DNA from: an uncultured Pelagibacteraceae bacterium
GTDB lineage: Bacteria; Pseudomonadota; Alphaproteobacteria; Pelagibacterales; Pelagibacteraceae
Length of the DNA: 64,000 nucleotides
Direction of reading: 5' to 3'
Assembly (NCBI GenBank): GCA_902610975.1
Contig: CACLXL010000001.1
Span: 1 to 64,000, forward strand
Below are positions 58,025-59,613 of the stretch, in pieces. A program made the position numbers and the translations under genes. The notes beneath the pieces were generated by a model. The model saw nothing but the letters and a program-made list of their open reading frames with translations. It searched no databases and had not been told where the DNA came from. Numbering within the stretch: the stretch's first letter is position 1; the number at the start of each line of letters is the position of its first letter.

Positions 58025-58054
58025 TTGACAAAATCCTGAATTTCTTGCTATAGT
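58025..58054 (+). promoter_or_regulatory. Predicted sigma70-type promoter of metY
   Basis: TTGACA, 18 nt, TATAGT. Transcription would start at about 58060, exactly where the SAM-II aptamer begins. The -35 box lies just past the gshB stop. A second TTGACA overlaps 7 nt upstream. Confidence 0.7.
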
Positions 58055-58060
58055 TCTTAT

Positions 58061-58111
58061 AGCGCTGAGTTAAGGCAACTTGCGGGCGCTTTATAAATCC
58101 TGCTAAAGCGC
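58061..58111 (+). promoter_or_regulatory. SAM-II riboswitch aptamer of metY
   Basis: AGCGCTGAGTTAAGG, then TTGCGGGCGCTTTATAAAT and TGCTAAAGCGC follow the SAM-II pattern: P1 pairs AGCGC with GCGCT, and a 3' GCTAAA segment joins the pseudoknot. The 3' GCTAAAGCG is also exactly complementary to CGCTTTAGC at 58130-58138, inside the following terminator, which gives a simple antiterminator. SAM binding would free the terminator and stop transcription. SAM-II family is established; the switch pairing is read here. Confidence 0.88.
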
Positions 58112-58124
58112 ATAAGTCATTTAG

Positions 58125-58153
58125 ACCACCGCTTTAGCCGGTGGTTTTTTTTT
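58125..58153 (+). terminator. SAM-II-controlled intrinsic terminator
   Basis: ACCACCG and CGGTGGT form a 7-bp stem around CTTTAGC, followed by nine T. The loop and two stem bases are covered when the GCTAAAGCG of the SAM-II 3' strand pairs with CGCTTTAGC, so ligand state can decide termination. Confidence 0.9.
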
Positions 58154-58170
58154 GGAACAATCTGAAATTA

Positions 58171-58226
58171 AACCGGGTATTTGAACCATATTGTACACCT
58201 GGCATATGCCGAAGTACTAAAAAGGA
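58171..58226 (+). promoter_or_regulatory. SAM-V-like second element of the metY leader
   Basis: After the terminator comes GGGTATTTGAACC, ATATTGTACACC, the palindrome GGCATATGCC, and GAAGTACTAAAAAGGAG. The TACTAAAAAGG end resembles the 3' core shared by SAM-II and SAM-V, and tandem SAM-II/SAM-V leaders are known in marine bacteria. Here the core runs into an SD (AAGGAG), consistent with translational control. The fold is not checked, so the class is tentative. Confidence 0.6.
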
Positions 58227-58230
58227 GAAG

Positions 58231-58284
58231 ATGAACAGAATTAAACTTCGTTCATTCTTCTCCAGAAAAATGGAGAAAAAATGA
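58231..58284 (+). CDS. Leader peptide 1 of metY (17 codons)
   Basis: ATG preceded by AAAGGAGAAG, whose AAGGAG is part of the SAM-V-like core. Encodes MNRIKLRSFFSRKMEKK: basic, with two Met and no run of one amino acid. It ends as ATGA, overlapping the start of leader frame 2. Position right at the riboswitch-controlled SD suggests the riboswitch acts first on this frame, with metY coupled behind it. Translation is not proven. Confidence 0.5.
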   Translation: MNRIKLRSFFSRKMEKK

Positions 58285-58286
58285 AC
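58250..58286 (+). promoter_or_regulatory. Alternative hairpin arms in the metY leader
   Basis: Three arms compete. Arm A at 58224-58236 (GGAGAAGATGAAC) holds SD1 and start 1. Arm B at 58250-58263 (GTTCATTCTTCTCC) is complementary to A with one bulge. Arm C at 58272-58286 (GGAGAAAAAATGAAC) holds the GGAG and start of frame 2 and pairs with B through about 13 bp. Only A:B or B:C can form at once, so one start is hidden while the other is free. Confidence 0.65.
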
Positions 58287-58328
58287 GAAACAATAAGAGA
58301 AACAATAAGGGGGAAAATCAATGGCTGA
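58281..58328 (+). CDS. Leader peptide 2 of metY (15 codons)
   Basis: Starts in the ATGA that ends leader frame 1 (GGAG 5 nt upstream) and encodes MNETIRETIRGKING. Its TGA overlaps the first codons of metY (ATGGCTGA). metY also has its own strong SD (AAGGGGGA) 6 nt before its ATG, so the peptide may tune rather than replace initiation. The chain of overlaps is the evidence; translation is not shown. Confidence 0.45.
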   Translation: MNETIRETIRGKING

Positions 58329-59613
58329 TTTTAAACATCCGGAAACTATTGGCTTACATGGTAGTGATTATAGAGCTGATCCTACTACAACGGCTGTAGC
58401 AGTTCCTATTTACCAAACAACTTCTTATCAATTTAAAAATGCAGAGCATGCTGCAAATTTATTTGGTCTAAAAGAGTTTGGTAATATTTACACACGTATC
58501 ATGAACCCGACTGTAGATGTGCTAGAAAAAAGAGTTGCAGCGCTTGAAGGAGGTGTAGCAGCATGCGCAGTTGGATCAGGTCAAGCAGCTTCGGCAATGT
58601 GTATTCAAAACTTAGCACAAGCTGGAGATAACATTGTTGCTTCGACTGATTTATACGGAGGTACAGTTAACTTATTCAAAAATACTTTAAGGCAACAAGG
58701 TATTGAAGTTAGATTTGCAGATCCTGCGGATCCAAAAAACTTCGAAAAAGTGACTGATGATAAAACAAGGGCTTACTATGGTGAGACTCTGCCAAATCCT
58801 TATCTTCGTGTTTTTCCGATTAAAGAAGTTTCTGATATTGGTAGAAAAAAAGGCATACCTTTAATTATCGATAACACAGCTTCACCAGTAATATGTAAAC
58901 CTTTAGCTCATGGAGCTGCAATTGTAATGCACTCTTTGACAAAATATATCGGTGGTCATGGTACTTCAATTGGAGGAATAATTGTAGATGGGGGAAATTT
59001 TGATTGGATAAAAGATAGAAAAAGACAACCTCTTTTAAATGAACCAGATCAAAGTTATCACGGTGCAGTTTGGGCAGATGCAGTTCCGCAACTAACTGGT
59101 GCTAATATTCCATTTGTGATCAGAGCGAGAGTGGTTTTATTGAGAGACTTAGGTGCTCCGTTAAGTCCATTCAATGCATTTCAAATCATTCAAGGTTTGG
59201 AAACTGTGGCTTTAAGAATGAAACAACACTGTAGTAATGCAGAAAAAGTTGTGAATTTCTTAGATGGTCACAAAAAAGTTAAAAAGGTTATCTATCCGAC
59301 TAATTATCAAGGTGAAATTAGAGATAGAGCTAAAAAGTATATGCAAGGAGGGTACGGATCTTTAATTGGTATGGACCTTGGAACAAAAGAGGCAGGAGCT
59401 AAGTTTATTGATAACTTAAAAATGCTTTACCACGTTGCAAATATTGGTGATGCAAGAAGTTTAGCAATTCACCCGGCAACAACAACGCATAGTCAGCTTA
59501 CAGAAAAAGAGATGTTAGCTGCTGGTGTCACACCAGGTTATGTCAGATTATCAATTGGCATAGAACATCCAGACGATATTGTTTCGGATATCAAGCAAGC
59601 TTTGGCTGCATAA
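58321..59613 (+). CDS. metY: O-acetylhomoserine sulfhydrylase (MetY), PLP enzyme
   Basis: 430 residues. Cys/Met-metabolism PLP fold: HPETIGLHGSDYRADPTTTAVAVPIYQTTSY, YTRIMNPTVDVLEKRVAALEGG, and the PLP-lysine block MHSLTKYIGGHGTSIGG. Makes homocysteine from sulfide or methionine directly from methanethiol; the second would suit SAR11, which depends on reduced sulfur (established for the group). Controlled by the leader above; strong SD AAGGGGGA. Confidence 0.95.
   Translation: MADFKHPETIGLHGSDYRADPTTTAVAVPIYQTTSYQFKNAEHAANLFGLKEFGNIYTRIMNPTVDVLEKRVAALEGGVAACAVGSGQAASAMCIQNLAQAGDNIVASTDLYGGTVNLFKNTLRQQGIEVRFADPADPKNFEKVTDDKTRAYYGETLPNPYLRVFPIKEVSDIGRKKGIPLIIDNTASPVICKPLAHGAAIVMHSLTKYIGGHGTSIGGIIVDGGNFDWIKDRKRQPLLNEPDQSYHGAVWADAVPQLTGANIPFVIRARVVLLRDLGAPLSPFNAFQIIQGLETVALRMKQHCSNAEKVVNFLDGHKKVKKVIYPTNYQGEIRDRAKKYMQGGYGSLIGMDLGTKEAGAKFIDNLKMLYHVANIGDARSLAIHPATTTHSQLTEKEMLAAGVTPGYVRLSIGIEHPDDIVSDIKQALAA

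Follow-up and report, generated by a model that had tools for sequence, protein, structure and literature searches.

A SAM-V riboswitch predicted to reach metY through an RNA relay and a coupling mini-ORF in Pelagibacteraceae

SAM-V, the riboswitch through which some of the most abundant marine bacteria sense SAM, has been described as a direct cover of the SD of the gene that it precedes. In the sections of PMC2704228 considered here, the aptamer typically lies within ten nucleotides of the gene start and its GGAG is taken as the SD of that gene, and the corresponding sections of PMC6061858 propose that SAM binding forms a helix, P2a, with part of this SD-like end. These direct-cover leaders, found in front of metY and mmuM (Meyer 2009, PMC2704228; Huang and Lilley 2018, PMC6061858), have the same aptamer, the same 3' GGAG, and the same proposed hold by SAM via P2a as the leader described in this work, in which, in contrast, the GGAG is predicted to pair with an anti-SD arm and is separated by approximately 50 nt from a short upstream frame (uORF2) and by approximately 95 nt from metY. 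The tandem SAM-II/SAM-V leader of bhmT in “Ca. P. ubique” (PMC11508383, PMC9481103) follows the same plan, and the strands S1, S2, and S3 defined below are found there by the present comparison. For that leader, a direct action of SAM-V on the RBS is described in the sections considered of PMC9481103, and neither these nor the sections considered of PMC11508383 mention a decoy SD. No description of a decoy relay for SAM-V was found in the literature searched, which did not extend to the key SAM-V paper of Poiata 2009, and a word search in PMC12452182 did not retrieve SAM-V.

The window, that is, the whole stretch of 64,000 nucleotides that was analyzed, contains metY with a glutathione synthase gene as its upstream neighbor and a leader composed of several elements (Table 1). 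The aptamer at 58166..58230 is a SAM-V, as judged by its profile match. The first-pass annotation had described two coupled short frames in this leader, each preceded by GGAG, and a separate SD for metY, and the sequence bears this out, as it does the placement of the 17-codon frame directly behind the SD that closes the SAM-V core, the aptamer ending at 58230. The GGAG of uORF1 lies at 58224-58227 with a 3-nt gap to the start, the stop of uORF1 and the start of uORF2 overlap as ATGA, and uORF2, with its own GGAG at 58272-58275, ends as ATGGCTGA across the metY start at 58321. Two short frames of this kind are by themselves weak evidence, and the same bases form a strong hairpin that the first-pass annotation had missed. 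The SAM-II-like element of the tandem remains a weak match, and among 20 loci scanned, such an element was found at E values up to 0.05 only in L162, L156, and L155 (28 to 31 bits). Other RNA-family matches in the leader (E values up to 1: sau-66, mir-7950, and anti-hemB) are far under their cutoffs. A small A/T-rich inverted repeat (AAAATCA/TGATTTT) at 58314-58332 holds the metY ATG in its loop, and in one relative (L072), it is changed on both sides, to GAAATC/GATTTC.

Table 1. Elements of the metY leader in the window
Feature	Position	Strand	Evidence
SAM-II-like aptamer, first of the tandem	58052..58126	+	RF00521, 20.8 bits against a cutoff of 36 (weak match)
Terminator-like stem with T tract, downstream of the SAM-II-like element	58125..58153	+	Inverted repeat 58125-58131 / 58139-58145, then T run
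SAM-V aptamer	58166..58230	+	RF01826, 72 bits, cutoff 41, E 1.5e-11
S1, decoy SD and start (GGAGAAGATGAAC), proposed anti-anti-SD	58224..58236	+	Complementary to S2; cross-lineage covariation
S2, anti-SD arm (TTCGTTCATTCTTCTCC)	58247..58263	+	Pairs with S1 (-18.6 kcal/mol) or S3 (-19.1 kcal/mol)
S3, real SD and uORF2 start	58272..58289	+	Hairpin with S2, z -4.45
uORF1, 17 aa (MNRIKLRSFFSRKMEKK), possible helper, frame not conserved	58231..58284	+	Start in 55/55 metY leaders
uORF2, 15 aa (MNETIRETIRGKING), coupling mini-ORF	58281..58328	+	Overlapping stop in 72/72 non-direct g1 metY loci
SD-like AAGGGGG of metY, within uORF2	58307..58313	+	Sequence; GGGGG predicted mostly closed
metY, O-acetylhomoserine sulfhydrylase	58321..59613	+	TIGR01326, 573.7 bits, cutoff 495.1; PF01053

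SAM-V is present in 131 of 169 genomes of the genus of the window (g1) and in 190 of 397 genomes drawn from the order. The 131 g1 genomes gave 133 matches, from which 110 and the window were taken and 22 were left out; three of the 110 (L097, L121, and L135) have no metY in the stretch. Among the resulting 108 g1 loci with metY (window included), SAM-V lies directly before metY in 36 and does not in 72. The latter comprise 55 loci of the window type (SAM-V, S1-S2-S3, uORF2, metY), 16 with a bhmT-like gene between S3 and uORF2, and 1 with a metE-like gene in that place. PF02574 identifies the bhmT-like protein as a homocysteine S-methyltransferase, yet this protein scores below every NCBIfam equivalog cutoff. 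The metE-like protein matches B12-independent methionine synthases of NCBIfam only weakly and gave nothing in Pfam at an E value of 1e-5; these searches were run on one or two proteins each, and the remaining loci were sorted by motif.

A frame behind an SD with its stop across the metY start occurs in all 72 g1 loci without SAM-V directly before metY, the loci to which the search for overlapping frames was confined. The stop overlap anticipated for relatives is thus retained throughout, as TGA in ATGNNTGA in 70 loci and as TAATG in 2 (L127 and L134), with distances of 37, 40, 43, 44, or 47 nt between the starts of uORF2 and metY. The T at the end of metY codon 2 is present in 72 of 72 non-direct loci versus 25 of 36 direct ones. 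Because of this invariant overlap, translational coupling from uORF2 into metY is likely on comparative grounds. The synonymous bias expected by the first-pass annotation was not seen when uORF2 was analyzed: its single-step changes comprise 12 synonymous and 26 other changes (32% synonymous versus 26% expected by chance), with no sign of amino acid selection on the peptide. A functional uORF2 peptide was rejected on this basis, and so was an attenuator-type leader peptide, given that no conserved peptide or control codons were found (uORF2 changes near chance, and the uORF1 frame is broken in 13 of 55 metY leaders). From its sequence pattern, uORF2 looks like a device for ribosome handover rather than a peptide signal. 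The first codons of uORF2 in the window (58281-58289) resemble a bhmT start (ATGAAC or ATGAGC versus ATGAGT; compare L047, L075, and similar loci), and uORF2 may therefore be a fusion left after loss of the bhmT-like gene.

The hairpin formed by 58247-58263 and 58272-58289 was not equaled in stability by any of 200 shuffled sequences. A terminator role was rejected for it, as no T tract follows. Its 5' arm (S2) is also complementary to S1, which comprises the GGAG at the aptamer end and the uORF1 start, so that two mutually exclusive helices are predicted, S1:S2 and S2:S3, the latter covering the SD, for the window as well as for the other lineages compared. A scan of 108 SD-preceded ATGs on the two strands of the window showed the one at 58281 to be an outlier in its three-way fit (-15.6 versus -8.1 kcal/mol for the next); because it requires a GGAG 45 to 110 nt upstream, the scan finds only this type of arrangement. 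The best duplex of S1 with downstream sequence averages -14.6 to -21.9 in leaders of this design (relay leaders) versus -5.5 to -6.4 in direct metY, bhmT, and mmuM leaders. Within g1, the alignment shows S1, S2, and S3 as the best conserved parts of the leader, whereas the loops vary.

Comparison across lineages shows that the pairing is kept while the sequence changes. S1:S2 helices of 11 to 17 bp with differing sequences occur in 13 leaders from g1, g2, g3, g5, and named Pelagibacteraceae records, for example, GGAGAAAAGAGAGCTC with GAGCTTCTTTTCTCC, GGAGATGTTGAACAAAT with ATTTGTTCAACTTTCTCC, and GGAGAAGGGGTTTCAT with ATGAGCTTCTTCTCC. With GGAG and CTCC left out, native S1 and S2 of 23 representatives pair at -10.19 kcal/mol versus -5.67 kcal/mol for swapped partners, a value reached by none of 5,000 permutations. 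The same test gave 0 of 5,000 for 15 bhmT representatives outside the g1 type and 11 of 5,000 doing as well for 8 g1 and metE representatives. S1 is nearly invariant in 40 g1 leaders, and covariation is weak inside the g1 metY leaders because the strands hardly vary there. S1:S2 could partly mirror S3. Six relay leaders (L207, L245, L254, L257, L262, and L264) were missed by the search pattern and are absent from the relay-leader counts and the covariation tests; all but L207 are included in alignment A1.

Folding calculations, run from S1 onward with the aptamer pseudoknot excluded and SAM represented only as blocked bases, link S1 to the accessibility of S3. Blocking the GGAG of S1 lowers the predicted access of S3 more than 3-fold in all 86 unique leaders, with group medians of at least 1.7e5-fold; the weakest effect is a ratio of 0.0013, whereas blocking loops instead gave a median ratio of 1.02 and 0.0035 at the strongest. 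In the window, S3 is predicted to be open at 1.9% with S1 free and at 4e-9 with its GGAG blocked, and it is predicted to be 2 to 4% open without SAM. The MFE structure changes from open to closed upon blocking of S1 in 33 of the 86 leaders. In the other 53, including the window and all 14 unique g1 bhmT leaders, it has S3 closed even with S1 free, which implies that the relay must act there before S3 is complete or with the help of a ribosome. The aptamers themselves also differ, the facing pair in P2a being CC in 30 of 30 unbiased unique relay aptamers versus 4 of 89 direct ones, in a count that left out loci retrieved with a GAACC-containing pattern and, likewise, one further locus set. As we read the considered text of PMC6061858, this CC faces the GG of S1 in the way that P2a would. 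Such a CC is expected if P2a must outcompete S1:S2.

These observations suggest that the SAM-V aptamer probably controls metY through an RNA relay and a coupling mini-ORF; the SAM response, the direction of switching, and the coupling are what we infer from them. Without SAM, the 3' GGAG of the aptamer (S1) would be free to pair with the anti-SD arm S2, which would release the real ribosome site S3, where ribosomes would start uORF2, terminate inside the start region of metY, and then move on to that gene. When SAM is bound, the GG of S1 would be held by the aptamer in the P2a helix, and S2, thus released, would close over S3, so that uORF2 would not be started and metY would stay low. The “SD” of this SAM-V is best read as a decoy that is predicted to act as an anti-anti-SD, because S1 and S2 covary and blocking S1 affects S3 in every leader folded.

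The first-pass annotation had instead placed a peptide first, with metY following by coupling. Applied to the strands described here, SAM-V would control the start of uORF1, translation of uORF1 would melt S2:S3, and uORF2 and metY would follow by termination-reinitiation. The second half of this scheme stands, since uORF2 and its coupling are likely, while a conserved cascade led by uORF1 does not, and taken as a whole we consider it unlikely. The start of uORF1 is kept in all 71 g1 leaders of this type, namely, 55 of 55 before metY (54 ATG and 1 GTG) and 16 of 16 before bhmT, and the frame is open through S2 in 50 of the 55 metY leaders and, before bhmT, terminates across the gene start in 15 of 16 leaders. 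A ribosome modeled on S2 raises the predicted access of S3 in the window from 1.9% to 83%, and there is a precedent in the ppe2 B12 riboswitch, which, in the considered text of PMC11260477, works through a uORF with an AUGA overlap. Against this stands the fate of the frame, which the first-pass annotation had expected to be kept in close relatives. It ends at uORF2 as in the window in 35 of the 55 metY leaders and is fused with uORF2 in 7, but it is frameshifted in 8 and stops before S2 in 5, and no fewer than 12 changes on the metY tree are required to account for these broken states when every window-type locus not listed as broken is taken as intact. Nor is the start general to the leader design, as a start codon is lacking within 12 nt of S1 in 23 of 25 unique bhmT leaders of non-g1 type; S1 continues there with a different sequence, and S2 changes along with it. 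Moreover, an open frame is cheap here, with few stops in S2 and S3 and, at the bhmT start, a stop in two of the three frames, and a ribosome stopped at codon 3 of uORF1 leaves S3 closed in the model (2e-7). A conserved leader peptide encoded by uORF1 was rejected as the main explanation on the grounds of the nonsense changes, the frameshifts, the changes on the tree, and the leaders lacking a start. In g1 metY leaders, the start of uORF1 can be explained as a pairing image of the S3 start because S2 pairs through both, whereas pairing cannot explain it in g1 bhmT leaders, where it is possibly a real start. A ribosome that uses S1 as a start site may thus add a layer in g1 by helping to open S2:S3, and on present evidence uORF1 is at most a helper. 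A literature search for ribosome profiling of Pelagibacter found none.

Another reading, which takes the hairpin for an ordinary mRNA structure and has metY start from its own SD largely outside the control of SAM-V, is very improbable. The AAGGGGG before metY and a metY ATG predicted to be approximately 98% unpaired are in its favor, but the GGGGG itself is predicted to be only 2.6% open and 2.0% open with S1 blocked, that is, 97 to 98% closed and insensitive to S1. Such an SD, predicted to be closed whatever the state of S1, fits a need for coupling. Furthermore, this reading does not account for the high score of the aptamer or for S1, S2, and S3 being conserved above the loops. The least probable explanation is that the aptamer GGAG is a standby site loading 30S subunits that start at the distant S3, since it leaves the covarying S1:S2 helix unexplained, even though Sinorhizobium metA has the same geometry, with an SD needed at the aptamer and a start 74 nt downstream according to the considered text of PMC9373788.

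The relay, as proposed, appears as a module that precedes different genes. The distance from the GGAG to the gene start is bimodal, at most 10 nt or 56 to 107 nt, in a survey whose SAM-V pattern missed L121, L161, L163, L184, L185, L203, and L204 and in which L155 and L156 appear at 31 and 0 nt, measured to an upstream in-frame start; measured to the start that follows the second GGAG, both fall into the far group. In the window, 93 nt separate the end of the GGAG from metY, with S3 in between, and the SD of metY is not in the 3' end of the aptamer. On the g1 metY tree, built with FastTree only and interpreted as if leader and metY had not recombined, the bhmT-like gene comes or goes at least 9 times across well-supported branches, with the leader and uORF2 kept on either side, and the direct and relay states interchange twice. 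The 55 window-type loci of the tree and the 55 metY relay leaders, where identical 200-base stretches were merged, are overlapping sets and not identical ones. The same leader design is found upstream of bhmT-like genes of g3, of g2, and of named Pelagibacteraceae records, as well as upstream of a metE-like gene of g5. Genome G011, which we take to be HTCC1062, carries a relay leader before bhmT with S1, S2, and S3 (L166). Its SAM-V places agree with the table in the considered part of PMC2704228. One locus (L006) was grouped under “no gene” although it is a direct metY locus, and a match in an archaeal record (L261) is no SAM-V and was left out.

Several side observations concern these leaders. 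The loop between S1 and S2 of bhmT leaders has a recurrent CCCTC or CCCTCTTAGTT motif, for which we know of no role. Six orphan leaders (L142, L240, L244, L252, L255, and L259, with L142 and L252 possibly being one locus) keep SAM-V, S1, and S2 but have lost S3 and the bhmT-like gene, and a gene on the opposite strand, HAD-like by eye, lies behind them. They may be a relic or a SAM-sensing small RNA. In other alphaproteobacteria, no clear relay was seen behind SAM-II among 27 loci, none of them from Sinorhizobium, that were read by eye and without a statistic because the anchor was found (30 loci were returned); a run of at least five T occurs in 22 of these 27 stretches.

More tentatively, and perhaps not in every part, these features can be joined into one picture. 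SAR11 would have a modular SAM-V relay in which a decoy GGAG and the real site exchange strands over a shared anti-SD arm, the decoy also being a working start in g1. Pairing and ribosome passage would together open the site, a mini-ORF would carry ribosomes to metY, and the module would serve metY, bhmT-like, and metE-like genes.

If the relay proposed here holds, direct cover fails for a substantial group of SAM-V leaders, to which the HTCC1062 bhmT leader of structural work apparently belongs, and probes that end at the aptamer miss the part that gives the output. It would also show how a riboswitch can become independent of the gene start and be put to use with other genes. Both kinds of component are already known, anti-anti-SD platforms from btuB and riboswitch-uORF coupling from ppe2. 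What would be new, as predicted by folding, is their combination: a decoy SD held by the aptamer, an anti-SD arm that it shares with a real site placed further away, and a mini-ORF that in g1 provides the coupling to metY. The btuB B12 riboswitch, as presented in the considered sections of PMC11162775, likewise has exclusive anti-SD:SD and anti-SD:anti-anti-SD helices, but it belongs to another aptamer class, and the proposed anti-anti-SD of the window itself resembles an SD and is located where the aptamer ends. In ppe2, also of the B12 class, an overlapping stop-start uORF likewise carries riboswitch control to the gene, but in the sections considered of PMC11260477 that uORF is itself under the switch and shown to be translated, whereas the uORFs of the window are predicted. 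Finally, the SAM-II leader of Sinorhizobium metA shares the requirement for an SD at the aptamer and the far downstream start, which the considered text of PMC9373788 explains as a standby site with no mention of an anti-SD arm; for this odd result, a relay like the one proposed here offers a testable alternative.
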